Below, in pieces: positions 6,882 through 54,728 of a stretch of DNA of 64,000 bases. The DNA is taken from contig OMVS01000003.1 in the NCBI GenBank assembly GCA_900314575.1, positions 1 to 64,000 of the forward strand, given 5' to 3'. Under the pieces are notes generated by a model. The model did no database searches. It saw nothing but the letters and a program-made list of their open reading frames with translations, and was not told where the DNA came from. The translations under genes and the position numbers were made by a program. Every line of letters begins with the position of its first letter. The stretch's first letter is position 1. This DNA is from an uncultured Olsenella sp. (GTDB lineage Bacteria; Actinomycetota; Coriobacteriia; Coriobacteriales; Atopobiaceae).

Positions 6882-9656
6882 TGCCCCCTCGCGGCCCTTC
6901 TGGCGCGGCCGCAGCCTCCTCTGGGCCAAGGCACGCCAAGCGAGGAAGCAGGCGATGGCGCCTGCGCTCATGGCCGCGCCCGCCTTGAGGCCGGGCGTCT
7001 CGTAGGTCAGAGTGATGACGTGTTCGCCGCGGGTGACGTCAACGCCGCAGAAGGCGCCGTAGATCCTCCTGAGCTCGACGGGCTCGCCGTCCACCTCGGC
7101 ACTCCAACCCTTCTCGTAGGGCACGCGGAGGAACACCGCCTCGTCCCTCGCGGCGCTGAAGCCCACCCTCACCCTTCCGTCACGCACGTCGAGGGACCGC
7201 TGGCCGAGGTCCAGGCCATTCAGGCCGCGGGAGAGGACGCCCTCGTCGAGCGTCACGACGCGCAGCAGCCTGGAGACGTCCTCACCGAGCTGCAGCTCGC
7301 GCAGGCCCTCGACGCTCGAGTCCAGGGTCGACGAGTCGTAGTCGAGCTCCACGGTGAGGACCTCTCCTGCCTGATGCGTCCCGAGGCAGATGACGTTGTT
7401 GTCGAACGCGCCGCCGAAGCACTGCACGCACGTCCCGTTGACCAGGACCCTTCCGCTCACGCACTTGCCCCTGCTCGAGATCTCGGTCTGCAGGGGAAGG
7501 TAGACGTAGGGCGTGCCCGTCGCCAGCACCTCGACCGTGAAGGTGCGGCGCAGCGTGCCCGGCGCGTCAGAGTCCGCGAGGCGCACGCGGTCCTCCACGT
7601 AGGGCGCCTCCGAGGAGCCGGTGGCGTCGGCGAACATCGCGACCTGGTTGGCGATGGCGTCCTCGGACCACGAGACGGAGCCGCTCGCCTCGGAGGCGAG
7701 CCCGTGGGCGAACGTCACGCCGTGCTCGTAGCGATGGACGGTGTGGCCGACTATCCCCTCGGAGGCCACGTCCGTCGCACCCGGGACCTCGCCCTCGTCG
7801 ATGACGTAGTCCACGCCGATCAGAGAGTCGGTCAGCTCCATGGGGCAGTTGTAGAAGTAGCCGAAGTAGCTCCGCTTGGACCTGGAGTAGCCAAGCGCCT
7901 GCATGAGCGTAACCGCGTCATCCGTGACCGTCGAGGAGTACTCGCTCATCCCCTGCGAGGGGATCGTGAAGCCCTCCGCGGTGGTGGCACCATCGTACCT
8001 GCGGAGGCCCATGTAGCCGACGGACGCCTGCCCCACCATGAGCGACGCCTCCTCTCCTGCGGCCACGCCGGCGTCCGCGTAGACCTCGTCGTAGACCCCG
8101 CGCAGGGCCGTGAGGTAACCGCGGTAGAAACCCGAGGTGGTCTTGCAGCGGGAGAAGGCGCACCGGGCGTCGAAGCCGCACTCTGCGCACGCCAGGGCGA
8201 CCACGAGCACCGAGGCCGCGACGGCCGGCCATGATGTCGGGCAGCCGCCGCGCGCGGGGCGGTTGGCGAGCTCGAGGGCCGCCTCAAGGACCGCCGGCTC
8301 CACGAGCAGGGCGCCCACCCCCACGCAGGCGTTGCGCAGCGTACCCTCCGGAGCCGAGCCGCCCGCGACGAGGCACCAGGTGGAGAGGCCCACGAGCAGC
8401 GCCGCCCCGGCGGCGGAGCCGGCGACGAGCATCCTGCGCTCGCGATCCGCCAACGGGCAGACCCCGTCGGCCGCCTCGCGCGCCACGACGACGAGCGCGA
8501 ACGAGATGACGAAGGCGTGCCGGTAGAAGAAGGAGTCCGCCTTGCGCAGGACGCTCCACAGGTTCATGGCCCCCATCACGAGGGTGCCCGAGAACACGAA
8601 CATGAGCAGCAAGGCAAGGGTCAGCCTGCGCGAGCGGCCCACGCGCCTGTTGGCGAGGCCAGCGATTGCGAGGACGAGCGGGAGCGCTCCCGTGAAGATG
8701 CAGGGGACGTTCGCCCAATCGTCGGGGGGCACGGTACCCGCCGCGTAGTACGCGAACAGGTCCTGCGGCCAGAGGACGCAGGTGTCGTCGAGGAGCACGT
8801 GCGCCGAGAGGTCCCCCTCGACCCCCTGGAGGAGCCCCAGCACCGCCGGCAAGAACACGACCGCGCTCGCCGCGAGCCCCAGCGCCATGGTGAGCGCGTA
8901 GCGCCCCAGCGTGCGCCACGCGCGCCTCTCGCCCGCGGGCTCCCCCTGGACGCACACGAGGACGTAGGCGACCGAGAAGAGACAGGCCATGTAGCTCGTG
9001 TACCAGTTGAACAGCGTCGCACACGCGACTGCGGAGAAGAGCGTCAGGCAGCGGCCGTCGTGGACGAGCCGCCAGGTCCCGAGCGCCACCAGGGGCAGCA
9101 TGTAGACGCCGTCGAGCCACATGACGTTGCTCGCCTGGCACACGGCGAAGCCGCAGAGCGCATAGCACGTCGAGAGGACGAGGCTCAGCATCCCTTGGGA
9201 GAAGCGCCTGCGCAGGAAGGCGTAGCAGGTGAGCCCGGCCAACGAGAGCTTCCCCAGGACCGCCACGGAGAAGAAGAGCGGCACGTCGGCGTAGTCGAAG
9301 AGCGCGAGCAGCAGGTTGAAGGGACTCGAGAGGTAGTAGGCGAAGAGCGCAGCCGTGCCACCACCCATGCCGTGGGAGAAGGAGTAGAACAGCGAGCCCT
9401 GCCCGTGCATAACCTGGCAGAGCCATCCGAAGAACCCGACGTACTGGATGTGCATGTCCGAGATTGAGACGGTCAGATCCCCGAAGGGGTAGATCCCGAG
9501 ACTCCAGAAGACCACGCAGAGCACGCCGAGGGGGATGAGTGCCGAGAGCGCATACTCCCACAGGCACCGGTCGCGCACGTCCTCCGACGCGCGCGGCGAC
9601 GCCACGGCCGCCCCCTCCCCCGTCTCGAGCGGCGCCTTCGCGTCTGTGCGCGTCAT
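6879..9656 (-). CDS. YfhO-family membrane glycosyltransferase-like protein
   Basis: A 925-residue integral membrane protein. After about 35 cytoplasmic residues comes a membrane segment and the family signature GIYPFGDLTVSISDMHIQYV, with acidic residues at the outer face as in GT-C glycosyltransferases. About a dozen hydrophobic segments fill the first 500 residues. A large soluble, probably extracytoplasmic region follows, and one last membrane helix lies near the C-terminus. In Bacillus subtilis YfhO works with CsbB to attach GlcNAc to lipoteichoic acid; a comparable polymer or lipid acceptor is inferred here. The start overlaps the upstream deacetylase gene by ATGA. It stands where rplC would normally follow rpsJ. 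Confidence 0.85.
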   Translation of the reverse strand: MTRTDAKAPLETGEGAAVASPRASEDVRDRCLWEYALSALIPLGVLCVVFWSLGIYPFGDLTVSISDMHIQYVGFFGWLCQVMHGQGSLFYSFSHGMGGGTAALFAYYLSSPFNLLLALFDYADVPLFFSVAVLGKLSLAGLTCYAFLRRRFSQGMLSLVLSTCYALCGFAVCQASNVMWLDGVYMLPLVALGTWRLVHDGRCLTLFSAVACATLFNWYTSYMACLFSVAYVLVCVQGEPAGERRAWRTLGRYALTMALGLAASAVVFLPAVLGLLQGVEGDLSAHVLLDDTCVLWPQDLFAYYAAGTVPPDDWANVPCIFTGALPLVLAIAGLANRRVGRSRRLTLALLLMFVFSGTLVMGAMNLWSVLRKADSFFYRHAFVISFALVVVAREAADGVCPLADRERRMLVAGSAAGAALLVGLSTWCLVAGGSAPEGTLRNACVGVGALLVEPAVLEAALELANRPARGGCPTSWPAVAASVLVVALACAECGFDARCAFSRCKTTSGFYRGYLTALRGVYDEVYADAGVAAGEEASLMVGQASVGYMGLRRYDGATTAEGFTIPSQGMSEYSSTVTDDAVTLMQALGYSRSKRSYFGYFYNCPMELTDSLIGVDYVIDEGEVPGATDVASEGIVGHTVHRYEHGVTFAHGLASEASGSVSWSEDAIANQVAMFADATGSSEAPYVEDRVRLADSDAPGTLRRTFTVEVLATGTPYVYLPLQTEISSRGKCVSGRVLVNGTCVQCFGGAFDNNVICLGTHQAGEVLTVELDYDSSTLDSSVEGLRELQLGEDVSRLLRVVTLDEGVLSRGLNGLDLGQRSLDVRDGRVRVGFSAARDEAVFLRVPYEKGWSAEVDGEPVELRRIYGAFCGVDVTRGEHVITLTYETPGLKAGAAMSAGAIACFLAWRALAQRRLRPRQKGREGA

Positions 9657-10555
9657 CGTGCGTCCCCGTCGAGAAGCGCGCTCCCGCCCGGACCCAGCGC
9701 CATGAGCGCCCGGCGCTCGACGTCACGTCCCCCCGAGAGGTAGAACTCGGGGAAGCCCTTGAGGGTGGGATCGAGGCACCGCGATGGGTCGTCAAGACCG
9801 CCCGGGTGGAACAGGAACTCGATTCCCATTCCACGCTCCTCGGCAAGCCTGGCGTAGGCAGGGAAGACCGCGCGCACCCGCCCCTCGCTCATGGAGCCCG
9901 AGAAGAGCACGCCGCAGAACAGGGCGCTCACCTCCTCGTAGTCTGCGAGCAGCCGCCTGTCGCGCCCCCAGCACCAGTTGAGGACCAGGTGCTTCGCCCA
10001 GTTGATCGGTCGGATCGAGGCGAGTATGGCGGGCTTTAGGAAGGGCGCGGTCGGCTCAGCGGGGATGCGCAGGTACTCGAGGTGGAAACCGCCCTCGCGC
10101 ACGGCGGCGAACGTTGCCGCGAAGACCGCCGGAATCAGCTGGAAGTGCTGGTGCCCGTCGACCCTGAGGCGGCTCGCCTCCTCGGGGAAGCGGCCCACGA
10201 AGCGGGCGACCTGGGCGGCGACCTCGAGGCCGATCTGCCGTCTCAGCTCCTCCGAACCCGGTGCCTCCGTACGTGCGAGGAGCTCGGCGAACCCGCGGCA
10301 GAACATGCCCCTCCCGTCGACGAGCAGCGGGATGCTGGCTGGGTCCGCGCAGCAAGGGCCCTCGACCAAGTTGAGGTGAACGCCGATCCTCACGCCTTCG
10401 GGCCTGGCGTCCAGGAGCCGTGCGCACTCCTCGAAGCACGGGCTCGTGACCATCACGGAGGTGGAGTTGAGCGCACCGCCCTCGGCGCACGAGAGGATCG
10501 CCTTGGACTGCTCGGCGTCTATGCCGAAGTCGTCCGCGTGGAACACTACCTTCAT
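9653..10555 (-). CDS. YdjC/ChbG-family carbohydrate deacetylase
   Basis: A 300-residue protein of the YdjC (ChbG/HpnK) family of metal-dependent amide hydrolases, which remove N-acetyl groups from amino sugars. The metal-site motifs are all present: HADDFG at residues 6-11, His60 in GVHLNL, and DGHQHFQ at 133-139. No signal peptide is visible, so it should act in the cytoplasm. The ATG at 10553-10555 was chosen because it starts directly at MKVVFHADDFG; a 17-residue upstream extension lacks family similarity. It overlaps the yfhO-like gene by four bases and is divergent from the glycosyltransferase. Together they suggest addition of a deacetylated amino sugar to an envelope acceptor. Confidence 0.85.
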   Translation of the reverse strand: MKVVFHADDFGIDAEQSKAILSCAEGGALNSTSVMVTSPCFEECARLLDARPEGVRIGVHLNLVEGPCCADPASIPLLVDGRGMFCRGFAELLARTEAPGSEELRRQIGLEVAAQVARFVGRFPEEASRLRVDGHQHFQLIPAVFAATFAAVREGGFHLEYLRIPAEPTAPFLKPAILASIRPINWAKHLVLNWCWGRDRRLLADYEEVSALFCGVLFSGSMSEGRVRAVFPAYARLAEERGMGIEFLFHPGGLDDPSRCLDPTLKGFPEFYLSGGRDVERRALMALGPGGSALLDGDAR

Positions 10556-46972: not shown

Positions 46973-47971
46973 ATGAAGCTCGGCATGGTCGGCACCGGCC
47001 TCATCGTGAGCGAGCAGCTCCAGCAGATGGAGCACCGCCCCGGCTACACGGTGGAGGCGATCGCGAGCACGCCCCGCTCCCTCCCTCGTGCCAGGGAGCT
47101 TGCGGCGCGCCACGCCATCCCCGCCTGCTACGACGACTTCCTCGAGATGATCGTGGACGCAGACATCGACACGGTCTACGTCGGCGTCCCCAACGCGCTG
47201 CACCTCGCCGTCACGCGCGCCGCACTCGGGGCGGGCAAGAACGTGATCTGCGAGAAGCCCTTGGCCATGGGGCTCGAGGAGGCCCAAGACGCGAGCGACC
47301 TCGCCCGCGAAAGGGGCCTCTTCCTCTGGGAGGCCATGAACATCCCCTACCTGCCCAACTACGAGACCCTCCGGAGCCTCTTGCCCAAGGTCGGCGAGCC
47401 CAAGGTGGCCGCATGCAGCTACATCCAGCGCTCGCGCCGCTACGACGCCTTCCGCGCCGGCGAGACCCCTTCGGTCTTCGACCCCGCACGCGGCGGGGGC
47501 GCCCTCATGGACCTCGGCATCTACGTCATCCACTACCTCGTGGGGCTCTTCGGCGAACCCGAGCGGGTCTCGTACGCGGCCAACGTCGTGCGGGGCGTGG
47601 ACACCTCCGGCATCCTCACCCTCGACTTCGGCGGCCTCGTTGCAACCGGCGTCGTAGCCAAGGACGCAGAAGGCCCCTCACGCTGCCTCGTCGAGGGGAC
47701 GGAGGGCTACCTCCTGCAGGACTCGAAGCCGAGCTCCTGCGGCCCCATCACCTGCCACCTCAGGGACGGGAGCGAGACCCGCCACGACGACAATGGCTTC
47801 GCCGCTCCCGAGAGGCGCTGGGACGCGGAGTTCGCCAGCTTCGAGCGCGACTTCGAGACGGGCGACCTGGGGCACTGCTACCGGATGCTCGACCTCAGCC
47901 TCGCAGCCGCCCGGGTGCTCGATGAGGCCCGCACCTCCGCTGGGATCGCGCTTCCCGACTCGCACGGATAG
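46973..47971 (+). CDS. Gfo/Idh/MocA-family oxidoreductase
   Basis: A 332-residue NAD(P)-dependent dehydrogenase. The N-terminal Rossmann fold begins MKLGMVGTGLIVSEQLQQM. The family's EKP motif, whose Lys is catalytic, is seen in NVICEKPLAMGLEEA. The C-terminal domain has GGGALMDLGIYVIHY. Substrates of this family are mostly sugars or cyclitols; this one cannot be identified. The ATG follows AGGAGG. A long upstream open frame is not used. It ends in a strong bidirectional terminator. Confidence 0.9.
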   Translation: MKLGMVGTGLIVSEQLQQMEHRPGYTVEAIASTPRSLPRARELAARHAIPACYDDFLEMIVDADIDTVYVGVPNALHLAVTRAALGAGKNVICEKPLAMGLEEAQDASDLARERGLFLWEAMNIPYLPNYETLRSLLPKVGEPKVAACSYIQRSRRYDAFRAGETPSVFDPARGGGALMDLGIYVIHYLVGLFGEPERVSYAANVVRGVDTSGILTLDFGGLVATGVVAKDAEGPSRCLVEGTEGYLLQDSKPSSCGPITCHLRDGSETRHDDNGFAAPERRWDAEFASFERDFETGDLGHCYRMLDLSLAAARVLDEARTSAGIALPDSHG

Positions 47972-48091: not shown

Positions 48092-51000
48092 CTACTTGGA
48101 GACGCCGCGCCTGCGCAGGATGGCCGCGATGGCGACCACGCCGGCACCGAGCAGCGCGATGCCACCTGCACCGAGGGCGTAGTCCCCCGTGCTGGGCGTC
48201 CTGCCCTGGGTCCTGGGCGCAGGCTTGGTGCCCGCGGTGGTCGGGGTCGTAGACGGAGTCCTGGGGCTCTCCGGGACGGAGGAGCCGGGCTTCTGGTAGG
48301 AGTTGGTGAAGGTCGCCTCGCCCACCGCATCGCCCGTTACGTCTCCGGCTACGGGCCGGACGGTCAGCCGAGCGACCAGCTGCCCCTTGCCATCGTCCGT
48401 CACCTCGTACGTGAGCAGGAACTGGGTCTGGTCGCAGGTCCAGCCCTCCACGTGGAGCTGCTTCTCCCAGACGCGATACGTGTAGGTGCCGGGCTTGTCG
48501 AAGGTGATCCTGCCGAACTCGACCTTGCCAGGCCCCTCGAGAAGGACCGTCTTGCTGCCGGACGTCGAGCCCTCGGGCATGGGAGAGGCCTTGTCCTCGG
48601 CTCGCATCGTGAAGGAGAAGGTCGGGTAGGCGTCGCCCTCATAGCCGGTGACCTTCTTCTCGACCGGCGGGTCGGCCACGGTGACGGGCTTGGCGCTGTA
48701 GGTGTTGACGAAGCTCATCGCATTCACCTCGTCGCCGATGCCGTCGCCGGTGACGCGCTGGATGGTCCGGGCCTGCTCGAACTGGCCCGCCCCGTCGTCC
48801 TTCACTTCATAGGTGACGAGGTACTGGGTCTGGTCGCAGGTCCAGCCGCCCCGGTTGTCCCTCACCTCGAAGACGAGGTACTGGTAGGTGCCGGCCTTGT
48901 CGAAGGTGATGGTGCCGAAGCTGACGTTGCCGGGGCCTTGCAGCTCGACCGTCTTGGATCCGCCCTCGGAGCCCTCGGGCATCGGGTTGGCCGCGTCCAG
49001 CGCCTGCATCCTAAAGGAGAAGATCGGGTACTCGCCGCCCTCGAAACCGGAGACGTCCTTCCTGGCCGTCAGCTCGTCCGTAGTGACCTCCGTGGCCTTG
49101 TAGGTGTTGGTGATGATGAGCGTCTCGGGCGAGACCGTCGCCTGGAGCTGGCCGTCGACGTCTCGCACCTCGACCGTGATCTTGTGGGTCTCGGTGTCGT
49201 AGGTGATGCCGGGGCCCTCGCCCTCGAGCTCGCACACCTCATAGGTGTAGGTGCCCGCCTCGGTGTAGGTCCACGTACCGAAGATCACGTTTCCGCCGGC
49301 GTCGTTTGTCGCCGTTACCGTCTCACCCGTAGCCTCGTCTTTGAGCTGGAACTTGAACTCGTCGGCCGCGAGCGGGGTCCCGCGACCCTCAAGCCGCTTC
49401 TGGACGCGAAGCTGGACGGAGGTCTCGAGCGGCTTGTAGGAGTTTTTGAACGTCGTGGTCGTGGCAGAGCCCTCCTGCTCGGTCGGAGACAGGGAGAAGA
49501 CCGGTTCGCTCACCTTGAGCGTACCGTCACCGTTGTCCTCGACGTGGACCTTCACCCACCTCGGCGCGGCGTCGTAGGTGTAGCCGCGGGCGGCGTTGCC
49601 GTTCTCGGTCAGGACGAAGTAGTTGTCGCCCACCTGGGACTCGTCGAAGGTGACAGGGAAGGAGACGGTGCCGTCGGCCGCGTTGGTCGTGGTCGCCACC
49701 TCCTCCCTGCTGGCCTCGTCGGTCAGCGTGAAGCTGAACTGGCCGGCCTCGAGGGCCTTACCCTCGAGTTCCTTCTTGGCGGTGATGGTCGTAGAGCCGG
49801 TCGCCTCGTAACCGTTCACGAAGGTCGTGTCGCCCGTGTAGGTGGCGACGGCGGTGATCTTGCCGTTGCCCTCGTCGGTCACGGTGACCGTAACGGGGAC
49901 GGTGTTAGTGGCGTAGGAGTAGCCGGCCTTGCCATCGTTGACCTCGCGGATGGTGTAGGCGAAGGCCTTGGTGCGCTTGCCGGAGGAGGAGGCGCCGTCA
50001 GCCTCGGCGGCGTTGGCCTCGGTCGCGAGCAGACCCTCGAGGCCCTTGGCCAGGCTGGCGCCAGCGGAGTCGTCCTCAGGGGCGCTCGCGGCTGCGGCGC
50101 CGGACTCGGACGGGGAGGTCGCGGCTTCGGTCGCAGCAGGGGAGCCATCGCCGGAGGCGGCGCCGGTGGTCGCTGATGCGTCGGTGCCAGTCGTGGCGGC
50201 AGCGGAGGCGCCGGCGGCGGTACCCTCGGACGTGGCGCCCGTGGCCTCGTCGGCCGCGGTCATGGCGGTCACGGCGTCACCGGACGTGGGGCTCGTGGCG
50301 CCCGTGGTCGCGTCGGACGCGGCGCTCGTCGCGGAGGCGTCGGCGGACCCCGCGTCAGCGAAGATGCTCTCGTCGTAGTGGAGGTTGAACTTGACGCTCT
50401 CGCCCTCGTTGGTCGTGGTCTGGATTACCTTGCCTTCGGCGTCGCGGAGCTCGAAGGTGAACTGCCCATCCTTGATCTGCCTGCCGTGGAGCGTCTTCCT
50501 CGCGGAGACCGTGAGGTCGCCGGAGGCGGTGTAGGAGTTGTCGAAGGTCGTCTTGGAGTACTCGGGCGAGGCGGAGAGGGTGCCGTCCCCGTTGTCGGTG
50601 ACCGTGACCTTCACCGTGCTGGCGGTGGAGTCGTAGGTGTAGCCCGGTTCACCGTCGTTGCGCTCGGAGATGGTGTAGGTGTAGGTGCCGGCCGACTCGT
50701 AGGAGAGACCGCTGAAGGTCACCCTGCCGTCCACGTCGTTGGACGCCTCGGAAACAAGGGTGCCGTCCGCGTTCCTGAGCTCGAAGGTGAACAAGCCTGC
50801 GCTGAGATCGGCGCCGGAGAGGCTCTTCGTCACCTGGAGCGTGGCGTCGGTGACGGGGGTGGTGGCGTAGGTGTTGGTAATCACTGCAGGCGTCTGCACC
50901 TCGGCCTTGAGCGTGCCGTTCCCGTTGTCGGTGACTTTGATCGTCACGTCGTGGACGTTGTTGTCGCACGTCCAGCCGTCACCGGACTCGGTCGTCTCGA

Positions 51001-51526
51001 AGACCTGGTAGCTGTAGGTACCGGGCTTTCCGAACACGATCTTGCCGAAGGGCACCGTCTTCGTGCCGGCCTCGCTGAAGGTGACGGAGGCCGTGAGGTC
51101 CTCCGGCTCGGGCGAGCCCGTCAGCGGGACGAGCTGGAAGCTGAAGGTCTTGTCGGCCCATGCGGTGCCGTCGGCCACGACCGTCTTCTCGAGGACCGCT
51201 GTCGTGCTCGTGTCGAGCTCGCCGGTAGCGCTGTAGGTGTTGGTGAAGTTGGTGGTGGCGGAGCCCTCGGTCACGGAGGCGTGGAGCTGGCCCACTCCGT
51301 CGTCGGTCACCTTGACCACGACCGTCTTGCCGCTCGTGGCCTGGGAGTCGTTAGTGACGCCCGCGACCTCGCCGGACTCGGTCACGGTGTAGGTGTAGGT
51401 GCCGGGTTTGGTGTAGGTGACGTTGCCGAACGAGCTCGCGCCGCCCCTGCCGTCGACGTTGGTGACGCTGGTCGTGCCGGGCAGGGGGGCGCCGTCGGCG
51501 GCGGAGAGCGTGATCTTCCAGTGCAC
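48092..51526 (-). CDS. Wall-anchored isopeptide-domain fimbrial/adhesin protein, N-terminus missing
   Basis: An 1144-residue protein made of eight Spy0128/FctA-like domains of about 100-130 residues (approximate limits 1-102, 103-223, 224-336, 337-577, 578-700, 701-812, 813-945, 946-1080). Each begins with a Lys-containing strand, has a TYTYxVxE-type Glu and ends in TNTY- or NSY-like Asn, the residues that form Lys-Asn isopeptide bonds. A Pro/Thr linker leads to a sorting signal with TPSTG at 1110-1114, a membrane helix and RRRGVSK. Domain 4 carries a roughly 130-residue Ala/Ser/Thr/Gly-rich insertion. There is no signal peptide: the frame opens at a GTG inside domain 1. It is probably a 5'-truncated gene or silent cassette. 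Confidence 0.85.
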   Translation of the reverse strand: MHWKITLSAADGAPLPGTTSVTNVDGRGGASSFGNVTYTKPGTYTYTVTESGEVAGVTNDSQATSGKTVVVKVTDDGVGQLHASVTEGSATTNFTNTYSATGELDTSTTAVLEKTVVADGTAWADKTFSFQLVPLTGSPEPEDLTASVTFSEAGTKTVPFGKIVFGKPGTYSYQVFETTESGDGWTCDNNVHDVTIKVTDNGNGTLKAEVQTPAVITNTYATTPVTDATLQVTKSLSGADLSAGLFTFELRNADGTLVSEASNDVDGRVTFSGLSYESAGTYTYTISERNDGEPGYTYDSTASTVKVTVTDNGDGTLSASPEYSKTTFDNSYTASGDLTVSARKTLHGRQIKDGQFTFELRDAEGKVIQTTTNEGESVKFNLHYDESIFADAGSADASATSAASDATTGATSPTSGDAVTAMTAADEATGATSEGTAAGASAAATTGTDASATTGAASGDGSPAATEAATSPSESGAAAASAPEDDSAGASLAKGLEGLLATEANAAEADGASSSGKRTKAFAYTIREVNDGKAGYSYATNTVPVTVTVTDEGNGKITAVATYTGDTTFVNGYEATGSTTITAKKELEGKALEAGQFSFTLTDEASREEVATTTNAADGTVSFPVTFDESQVGDNYFVLTENGNAARGYTYDAAPRWVKVHVEDNGDGTLKVSEPVFSLSPTEQEGSATTTTFKNSYKPLETSVQLRVQKRLEGRGTPLAADEFKFQLKDEATGETVTATNDAGGNVIFGTWTYTEAGTYTYEVCELEGEGPGITYDTETHKITVEVRDVDGQLQATVSPETLIITNTYKATEVTTDELTARKDVSGFEGGEYPIFSFRMQALDAANPMPEGSEGGSKTVELQGPGNVSFGTITFDKAGTYQYLVFEVRDNRGGWTCDQTQYLVTYEVKDDGAGQFEQARTIQRVTGDGIGDEVNAMSFVNTYSAKPVTVADPPVEKKVTGYEGDAYPTFSFTMRAEDKASPMPEGSTSGSKTVLLEGPGKVEFGRITFDKPGTYTYRVWEKQLHVEGWTCDQTQFLLTYEVTDDGKGQLVARLTVRPVAGDVTGDAVGEATFTNSYQKPGSSVPESPRTPSTTPTTAGTKPAPRTQGRTPSTGDYALGAGGIALLGAGVVAIAAILRRRGVSK
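48287..49090 (-). repeat. Duplicated domains 7 and 8 of the fimbrial protein
   Basis: The last two isopeptide domains are close copies. Both contain NPMPEGS/SPMPEGS, SKTVxLxGPG, FGxITFDKxGTY, GWTCDQTQ and YEVxDDGxGQ in the same order, which is much closer than the other six domains. This suggests a recent tandem duplication. Confidence 0.75.
49967..50365 (-). repeat. Low-complexity Ala/Ser/Thr/Gly insertion in fimbrial domain 4
   Basis: Residues about 388-520 consist of short degenerate repeats (SGDGSPAATEAAT-like) placed between two strands of an isopeptide domain. The flanking halves align with other domains only when the insert is removed. It may be a flexible stalk or a glycosylated mucin-like segment. 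Confidence 0.65.
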
Positions 51527-51692
51527 GAGGGGCGTGCTCGTGAACCTCGACTTCGTGTCCGACCTCGACGGATCGGACTTCGTCCTCTACGACGGTAGAC
51601 GGGTGCCCATCAGCCGCAGACTGCTCCCGACCGCGCGCACCGCGATGGCGGAGTGGGGGTTCTCGCGCATGCGCGAGGAGGGGCGGCGGTGA
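51522..51692 (+). pseudogene. 3' remnant of a LytTR-type response regulator
   Basis: The plus strand encodes CTRGVLVNLDFVSDLDGSDF and then VLYDGRRVPISRRLL, the end of a LytTR DNA-binding domain (normally RSYLVNL and L-x-DG-x-x-x-P-I-S-R). The receiver domain and the first half of LytTR are missing: upstream of about 51,522 the frame is antisense to the fimbrial gene. The stop overlaps the GTG start of the histidine kinase, as in a regulator-kinase operon. AgrA/VirR-type regulators are the nearest relatives. Confidence 0.8.
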
Positions 51693-53092
51693 GCGGCGAG
51701 CTCGCCTCCGCCGTCGCGGGCGCGCTCTCGGCGCTCCCGCAATGGGCCCTCGCCCTCTCGGAGCTGCTCGGCTGCCTTCCGGCGCTCGCCCTCGTCGTCC
51801 GCATCGTCTGGCTCGCGAACCTGGAGGGACCCCGTCGCTGGGGGATGGCTCCGCTACCGGTCGCGAGCGCAGCGATCCTCGCCCTCGAGGCCTGGCTCTG
51901 CTCCGAGGCAGGGCTGCCGACCGCCCCCCTCCTGCTGCTCGACGTCGCGCTGTTCCTCCCCGTCCTCACGTGGATGACGGACCTCGGCGCCTGGCGGGCG
52001 CTCTACCTGTGCGCCCTCGCCACCCTCCTCACGTCGGACATAAGCTTGCCCGCCGTGCTCGTGGACGCGGCGGTCGTCGGAAACGACCTGTCGGAGCTGT
52101 TCCTCGCCTGGCCGGGCCTGCTCGTCCAGTGGGCGCTCTGGGGCCTGCTCGCGCCGTTCCTCTGGAGGCGCGCCTGCCCGAAGCTCGCTCGGTTCCTCAC
52201 GAGCCAGTTCGTCACCCCCGGGAACTGGCACACCCTCTGGATGGTTCCCGTGCTGCTGTCCGCAAGCTTCTCGTTCGCCCGACCCTACCCCTCCGACTCG
52301 CCGTCGATCGGGGACTCGATCATCGCCTCCGCCATCCTCTGGATCTCCCTCAACCTTCTCTTCCTCCTCGCCTTCAGGCAGGTCGCCAGCTTGATCCAGA
52401 TGGCATCGCGCTCGTTGCGGACGGAACGGGAGCAGGGGCAGACCAACCTGCAGAACGAGCAGATGAGCCATCTCGCCGAGCGCATCGGGGAGGCGCGCAG
52501 GCAGCGTCACGACCTGAGGCACCACCTCAACGCCCTCGCTGTGCTCGCCGACAAGGGCGACCTGGACGGCATGCGGACGTACCTCGGCGAGCTCTCCGAG
52601 GTCGCCCGCCGTGGCGACGCCCCGATCGAGTACTGCGAGAACGGCGTCCTCAACGCCGCCCTCGTCTACTTCGCCGACCGCGCCCGTGCCGCGGGGGCGG
52701 AGGTGGACATCTCCACTCGCATCCCCTCCTCCCTCCCGCAGCGCGAGACGATGGTCGCCTCGGTCCTTGCGAACCTGCTCGAGAACGCCGTCGCGGGCAT
52801 CCAGGACTTCGCAGCCGTCCGCGAAGAGAGGCCGCTCCTGCGCGTGCGCGCCGAGCTCCGTGGGCGAGACCTCTTCCTCGTCGTCGACAACTCGTGCGCC
52901 CCGGAGCTCGTGAGGCAGGAGCGGGGTACCTTCCGCACCACCAAGGGGGCGCACCATGGCCTGGGCATCGCATCCGTGCGCGCGGCGGCGCGGGAGAGCG
53001 ACGGCGTGGCGAGCTTCGAGGTCGCAGGCGAGACGTTCCGCGCCTCGGTCATGCTCGGAGGGGGCCGCCCTCACGCGCGCGGGGAGCGCTGA
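51689..53092 (+). CDS. AgrC/LytS-like sensor histidine kinase, GHKL type
   Basis: A 467-residue kinase. About seven hydrophobic segments fill the first 245 residues, followed by a coiled linker. The phosphoacceptor box is QRHDLRHHLNALAVLADKG. The ATP-binding domain has the N-box ANLLENAVAGI and the G-box GLGIASVRAAA; no D-box of classical HisKA kinases precedes it. This is the layout of peptide-sensing kinases of the AgrC/HPK10 family. The GTG at 51689 overlaps the regulator's stop codon and has GAGGAGGGG upstream. The partner regulator is truncated, so the system is probably broken here or serves another regulator. No AgrD-like peptide gene was seen. Confidence 0.87.
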   Translation: MSGELASAVAGALSALPQWALALSELLGCLPALALVVRIVWLANLEGPRRWGMAPLPVASAAILALEAWLCSEAGLPTAPLLLLDVALFLPVLTWMTDLGAWRALYLCALATLLTSDISLPAVLVDAAVVGNDLSELFLAWPGLLVQWALWGLLAPFLWRRACPKLARFLTSQFVTPGNWHTLWMVPVLLSASFSFARPYPSDSPSIGDSIIASAILWISLNLLFLLAFRQVASLIQMASRSLRTEREQGQTNLQNEQMSHLAERIGEARRQRHDLRHHLNALAVLADKGDLDGMRTYLGELSEVARRGDAPIEYCENGVLNAALVYFADRARAAGAEVDISTRIPSSLPQRETMVASVLANLLENAVAGIQDFAAVREERPLLRVRAELRGRDLFLVVDNSCAPELVRQERGTFRTTKGAHHGLGIASVRAAARESDGVASFEVAGETFRASVMLGGGRPHARGER

Positions 53093-53156: not shown

Positions 53157-54092
53157 CTAGCAGCAGGCGGGTTCCGGACGGGCCGCGGAGGTCTGCGTCT
53201 CGCGGAGCTGGGCGATGGAGGCGTCGAGCTTCGCGAGGATGCGCTCGCGGCCCTCGGGCAGCTTCGCCTTCGTGTGGACCCACTGGGTGATGGCGCGCTG
53301 CCACTCCGGGCCGTCGCCCGCTGCGACCTCCTCGCCGCAGGCGACGTGCTTGGTGTGGTAGCCCTCGAACACGGTGTCGATCGCGAGCCCGCTCACGAGC
53401 AGGCGCTCCTCCTCCATGCACTCGAGGTCACTCGCCCGAACGAACCGGCCCTCCCGCTCCCAGCGGCCTAGCTCGGTCAGCGGGTTGACGCCGAGGTTGA
53501 AGTTGGTGATGAAGCTCGGGCGGAGCTCGTTCAGGAGGCGCGCCGTGGCACGGGCGTTCTCCGCGCCGCGACCTGCGCCGGCGACGCCGGTCATGATGTG
53601 CGCGCCGAGCTCGAAGCCCGCCGCATGCAGGCGCCTGACCTGCTCGCGCGCCTGGTCGTTGGTGTGGTCCTTGTGCATCTGGCAAAGGACGTCGTCGAGC
53701 CCGGTTTCGATGCCCACGTACACCATGGCGTAGCCGCGCTTACGCAGCTCGCGCAGCTCGCCGTCGGTCTTCCTTGCGATCGAGGGCACCGTGGCGTCGC
53801 TCGTGACCCGCTCCACGGAGGGCAGGTAGCGCCCGATGAGGTCCAGGATGGCCATGAGGCGGTCCATGTCCATGTGGAGGGCGTCGCCGTCACCCAGCAT
53901 GAGGTTGGTGGGGGTGCCGCCCACGTCGTGGACGCGCCTGAGCTCCGCCTCGATCCTCTCGAGCGGAACCTCGCGGTAGGTGGTGTCCTTGTAGAGGTCG
54001 CAGAAGGCGCAGCGGTTGTACGGGCAGCCCCGGGAGACCACGAGCCCAAACGCCCCGCGCTCGTTGGAGGACTTGCAGATTGTTCCTGGCAT
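53157..54092 (-). CDS. Radical SAM protein of unknown function
   Basis: A 311-residue radical SAM enzyme. The cluster motif is SRGCPYNRCAFCDLYKD, that is C-x4-C-x2-C rather than C-x3-C-x2-C, a spacing found in one COG1032-like subgroup (GCxxNxCxFCxMYK). Further strands carry GGTPTNLMLGDGDAL and YVGIETGLDDVL, which bind SAM. The C-terminus ends EPACC. The ATG at 54090-54092 follows AGGTGAT; a GTG three codons upstream is an alternative. It lies 99 bases after an HxlR regulator on the same strand. The substrate is unknown. Confidence 0.85.
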   Translation of the reverse strand: MPGTICKSSNERGAFGLVVSRGCPYNRCAFCDLYKDTTYREVPLERIEAELRRVHDVGGTPTNLMLGDGDALHMDMDRLMAILDLIGRYLPSVERVTSDATVPSIARKTDGELRELRKRGYAMVYVGIETGLDDVLCQMHKDHTNDQAREQVRRLHAAGFELGAHIMTGVAGAGRGAENARATARLLNELRPSFITNFNLGVNPLTELGRWEREGRFVRASDLECMEEERLLVSGLAIDTVFEGYHTKHVACGEEVAAGDGPEWQRAITQWVHTKAKLPEGRERILAKLDASIAQLRETQTSAARPEPACC

Positions 54093-54191: not shown

Positions 54192-54575
54192 CTATGCGTA
54201 GTGACTGGCGGTCGCCACGAGCGGTCTCTCGGGATTCGCCGCCTGGTAGCCCTCGCCCCAGTCCCTGAGGGCGTCGAGCACGGGGGCGAGGCTCGCGCCC
54301 AGCGGCGTCAGCTCGTACTCCACGCGGGGTGGCACCTCGGGATAGGCGGTGCGGGTGAGCAGACCGTCCGCCTCCATCTCGCGCAGGTTGCTGGTGAGGA
54401 CCTTCTGGGAGATGCCGCCCAGGGAGCGGCGCAGCTCGCCGAAGCGGCGACGGCCCCCGGCCAGGTCCCTCAGAATCAGCACCTTCCACTTGCTGCCGAT
54501 CAGCAGCAGGGTGGTCTCCACGGGGCAGGCGGGCAGCCCCATGGAGCGCGAGAGCTTCGTCGCGACCTTCTCCAT
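54192..54575 (-). CDS. HxlR-family transcriptional regulator
   Basis: A 127-residue winged-helix protein. Family signatures are CPVETTLLLIGSKWKVLILR, FGELRRSLGGISQKVLTSNL and LTPLGASLAPVLDALRDWG. The Cys of the N-terminal CPVE may sense electrophiles or redox stress, as in HypR. The ATG at 54573-54575 has GGAGG five bases ahead; a TTG at 54614 would add 13 residues. HxlR genes usually control a divergent neighbour; here only a 38-codon remnant remains on that side. Confidence 0.92.
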   Translation of the reverse strand: MEKVATKLSRSMGLPACPVETTLLLIGSKWKVLILRDLAGGRRRFGELRRSLGGISQKVLTSNLREMEADGLLTRTAYPEVPPRVEYELTPLGASLAPVLDALRDWGEGYQAANPERPLVATASHYA

Positions 54576-54728
54576 CCATGCCTCCAGCGCGCCGGCGAAC
54601 GATACGATACGCAAAAGATACCAGCATCACAATTGTACCCAGGGCACGAGGGGATACACTTGCGCTCACCTGCACGAAGGCGCCACATCCTCGCGAGGCG
54701 CCTATCATGTGCGTATCCGAGCGCCGGA

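Follow-up and report, generated by a model that had tools for sequence, protein, structure and literature searches.

Surface proteins built from FctA/Spy0128-type isopeptide pilin or adhesin repeats (PF12892) are anchored by sortase and carry a signal peptide and a C-terminal sorting signal. In LytTR/GHKL two-component systems of the AgrA-AgrC type, a response regulator with a receiver domain and a LytTR domain is followed, with overlapping stop and start codons, by a GHKL kinase whose N-terminal part is long and hydrophobic. Remnants or members of both families lie back to back in the window, the whole stretch of 64,000 bases analyzed here (bases 1-64,000 of contig C124, which has 66,467 bases). 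The source assembly, from an uncultured Olsenella sp., an actinobacterium of gut or rumen type, is a 2.13 Mb draft of 144 contigs, 96.5% complete. The nearest named relatives found belong to the RUG series of uncultured Olsenella/Coriobacteriaceae genomes, in agreement with a place in Atopobiaceae, and a literature search found no paper on this locus.

Two truncated genes and their junction

The minus-strand open reading frame at 48092-51526 (1144 codons) was identified by Pfam search and frame reading as the gene for a 5'-truncated sortase-anchored surface protein with eight FctA repeats. All eight repeats score above the Pfam cut-off (476 bits and E 4.6e-145 for the FctA family on this frame) and the first is incomplete, matching the profile of 120 positions from position 17 onward. 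Direct reading of the translation reveals a cell-wall sorting signal at 48095-48202 (minus strand), consisting of PSTG-D, a hydrophobic stretch and an RRR tail, and two sortases are encoded in the same genome. In its eight repeats and its sorting signal the protein resembles known FctA/Spy0128-type proteins, from which it differs in that it has no signal peptide; because of this absence the remnant would be expected neither to be exported nor to reach sortase and become anchored. A VWA domain is absent from it as well. Homology to FctA relatives begins at the residues H/W (51523/51520), and upstream of this point the frame continues, antisense to the LytTR gene, for only about 20 codons to a stop, with no hydrophobic N-terminus up to that stop. 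A different functional start for the adhesin was considered and rejected in view of this stop and the lack of an in-frame signal peptide. An Ala/Ser/Thr-rich low-complexity stretch of about 125 residues (49981-50360) lies inside one of the FctA repeats.

On the plus strand, profile search and alignment with a relative identified 51513-51692 as the 3' remnant of a receiver-LytTR response regulator gene, of which only the second half of the LytTR domain is left. The sequence matches positions 46-95 of the 98 positions of the LytTR profile (PF04397; E 0.0013, 19.3 bits against a cut-off of 22.6) and corresponds to residues 184-240 of an intact regulator in the related genome G081 (60% identity, E 1.5e-15); it is a remnant and not a complete LytTR domain. 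LytTR homology begins at 51513 and the stop codon is at 51690-51692, whereas the open frame extends back to a GTG at 51417 and in that part is an antisense-derived chimera. No receiver domain (PF00072) was found upstream of the LytTR remnant, and intact relatives carry one. The gene that follows, identified by Pfam search and alignment at 51689-53092 (plus strand), encodes an intact GHKL-type histidine kinase whose likely GTG start at 51689 overlaps the regulator stop (GTGA). It matches PF14501 (HATPase_c_5) with E 1e-9 and conserves RHDLRHH and NLLENAV, and thus keeps the histidine, N and G boxes of a GHKL ATPase domain. The window therefore resembles AgrA-AgrC type systems in the second LytTR half, the subsequent kinase with overlapping stop and start, and the long hydrophobic N-terminal part of that kinase, and differs from them in lacking the receiver domain and the first LytTR half. 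A promoter scan of 51300-51800 found none, the consensus employed being a poor model for this phylum. The locus as a whole is bounded by a Gfo/Idh gene that ends at 47,971 and a radical SAM gene at 53,157.

From the homology starts of the two genes, their junction was placed at 51513-51523 (no strand assigned). Around TTCCAGTGCAC, FctA homology either abuts LytTR homology or runs into it for up to about 11 bp, a possible microhomology. This stretch could be assigned to either gene, since IFQCTRGVLVNLDFV of the window corresponds to FFRCTRGVLVNLDYV in G081. In that relative the CTRG residues of the join belong to the LytTR sequence proper (FFRCTRGVLVNLDYV), so that the overlapping bases fit both genes, as microhomology would. 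A preliminary description of this DNA had proposed that two divergent genes without 5' ends meet near 51,522, their homologies coming within about ten bases of each other at GTGCAC, and that a fimbrial protein with a sorting signal and no signal peptide opens inside its first domain; all of this was borne out. It had also recognized that only the 3' part of the LytTR regulator is left, and here only the length needed revision, from about 55 to about 57-60 codons.

The same description had considered a misassembly, in which the assembler would have connected separate positions of an intact locus, or variants from two strains, and left out the intervening DNA. Such an error is conceivable in a draft of 144 contigs that is 96.5% complete, the more so as the adhesin is a repeat array and hard to assemble. 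However, the joined FctA repeat and LytTR gene have no long repeat in common that could drive a misjoin, and the at most about 11 bp that they do share fall short of the usual assembly k-mers. A 21-mer across the junction is unique in the same genome when up to three mismatches are allowed, and 251 bp around the junction gave no other match in that assembly, so that no second version of either side was detected. A junction 30-mer was not found in viral contigs either. The GC content is even on both sides (0.66-0.70), and with no break in composition nothing points to an origin of the two flanks from different sources. Because the 251 bp and the 21-mer are unique and the GC content is even, a repeat-driven misjoin is unlikely; chimeric molecules or mixed strains are possible sources of error, and an artefact of one kind or another is on the whole improbable, if to be taken seriously.

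Intact divergent loci in related genomes

In a kinase search that took in 140 genomes of the family, close relatives of the window kinase were found in G081, RUG025 (G076, locus L103) and RUG13628 (G007, locus L104). The best adhesin matches to the first FctA repeats came from the latter two genomes, in each of which adhesin and kinase share a contig. In both, a large adhesin gene stands back to back with a gene for a complete receiver-LytTR regulator, which is followed by a kinase of the same GHKL family; their kinases are 41-42% identical to that of the window, and the first two FctA repeats of the window are 53-56% identical to theirs. The adhesin of RUG13628 is a single frame of 2344 aa with a VWA domain and 12 FctA repeats that begins with MKWLRKHLAYALAAILVAVGVFAAGG, a signal peptide by reading, and 441 bp separate its gene from the start of the complete regulator gene. 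The window agrees with both loci in gene families, order and orientation, and differs in that they keep the 5' part of the adhesin gene, the DNA between the two genes and a complete regulator gene, all three of which it lacks. When the window junction was mapped onto RUG13628 and RUG025, 5.5 kb and 4.0 kb, respectively, were missing, lengths that are only guides because repeat number differs between species. In RUG025 the adhesin is split between frames, with the VWA part off-frame from the repeat array (G076:C31:41183-43361; L087, about 8184-10361), and this gene seems to be broken or frame-shifted as well.

The kinase is absent from the two genomes of the same genus; the intact loci therefore belong to genera other than that of the window, and none of them shows the exact ancestor. 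This absence, together with a regulator-kinase pair in G081 that adjoins prfC and has no adhesin beside it, might be taken to indicate that the two truncated genes were never neighbors in this lineage and were brought together by separate rearrangements. Against this, members of the same families are neighbors in the same divergent orientation in RUG13628, RUG025 and two Clostridia, so that one deletion suffices, and a history of separate rearrangements is very improbable. One of the same-genus genomes (G002) has a separate VWA/FctA adhesin (L097:77-3343), and at a distance of about 6 kb lies an HxlR regulator that shares 80% identity with the one encoded at 54192-54614 of the window, so that an adhesin gene may have been lost or moved in the vicinity of the window locus.

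Absence of the 5' halves and origin of the junction

The remaining alternative, also raised in the preliminary description, is an inversion or phase switch of which the junction represents one state, with the 5' ends stored elsewhere and restorable. Adhesins are frequent targets of phase variation, and GTGCAC at the junction is a palindrome; yet a 6-bp palindrome is common by chance, and among inverted repeats none was found that has one of its arms at the junction. Within the source genome, FctA gave no match outside the frame at 48092-51526, and the N-terminal 700 aa of the RUG13628 adhesin gave none at E<=10, although the same query matched seven of nine other genomes (G001, G002, G076, G141, G146, G033 and G007 itself), positive controls that include both same-genus genomes and the source of the query. 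Each of the 11 receiver domains found in the genome belongs to a protein with its own output domain, none of them being unpaired, and its two other LytTR domains are of full or almost full length, covering the profile from position 3-5 to 96-97. Neither the signal-peptide/VWA part of the adhesin nor the receiver part of the regulator was thus recovered, and, as far as a draft of 96.5% completeness can show, the missing halves lie nowhere else in the genome. With no alternative 5' parts and no flanking inverted repeats, classification as a phase-variable invertible locus was rejected. A reversible switch would place the 5' halves in the unassembled few per cent or in another subpopulation, and its other state would restore adhesin and regulator together, but we regard it as barely credible.

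The best explanation of the junction is that one deletion within a divergent locus left it as a scar, a reading to which we assign a probability of roughly three in four and which the preliminary description had put first; the complete divergent pairs in RUG13628 and RUG025 support it. The ancestor would have carried a large sortase-anchored adhesin gene on the minus strand, with signal peptide, VWA domain and many FctA repeats, and on the plus strand, to its right, an operon for a LytTR response regulator and a GHKL kinase. An illegitimate deletion of roughly 4-5.5 kb, perhaps mediated by microhomology, would then have taken the N-terminal part of the adhesin, the promoter region that served both sides and all but the last quarter of the regulator. 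We infer that this was one event, as well as its size and mechanism, from the remnants, the two intact relatives and the absent 5' parts. The deletion is probably recent, as no stop or frameshift interrupts the adhesin remnant and the catalytic motifs of the kinase are preserved; open frames are weak evidence of recency, because they are common in such GC-rich DNA, where the antisense strand also has an open frame of 698 codons. With no receiver and only half a DNA-binding domain left, the regulator is predicted to be inactive, and the kinase, itself intact, would be orphaned, with neither partner nor native promoter. The locus thus appears to be an ordinary scar of pseudogenization and loss of function and not a switch, an assembly error being less likely.

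A recurrent adhesin and LytTR-GHKL pair

A contig search with the window kinase alone returned nothing, and with the kinase alignment it returned 49 loci. FctA adhesins lie within reach of the related kinase in four of these (L103, L104, L113 and L126), all in the same divergent orientation, and L113 and L126 are from Clostridia. In the two clostridial loci, stand-alone receiver-like frames of 127 and 159 aa, identified by eye (L113:8483-8863 and L126:8334-8810, both minus strand), sit between the FctA/VWA adhesin and the LytTR regulator on the adhesin strand, and their products are possibly a third component of the system.

That VWA/FctA adhesin and LytTR-GHKL genes recur as a divergent pair in Atopobiaceae and some Clostridia suggests, as a reasonable reading of gene order, that the LytTR-GHKL system may control the adhesin. 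As a deletion scar the locus is ordinary, since loss of large surface adhesin genes is frequent; here the neighboring regulator would have gone with the adhesin. The conserved pairing is mildly interesting, and the scar is of use to it indirectly, through comparison: if the adhesin is indeed under the control of the two-component system, the window would come from a lineage in which that unit has been lost naturally.
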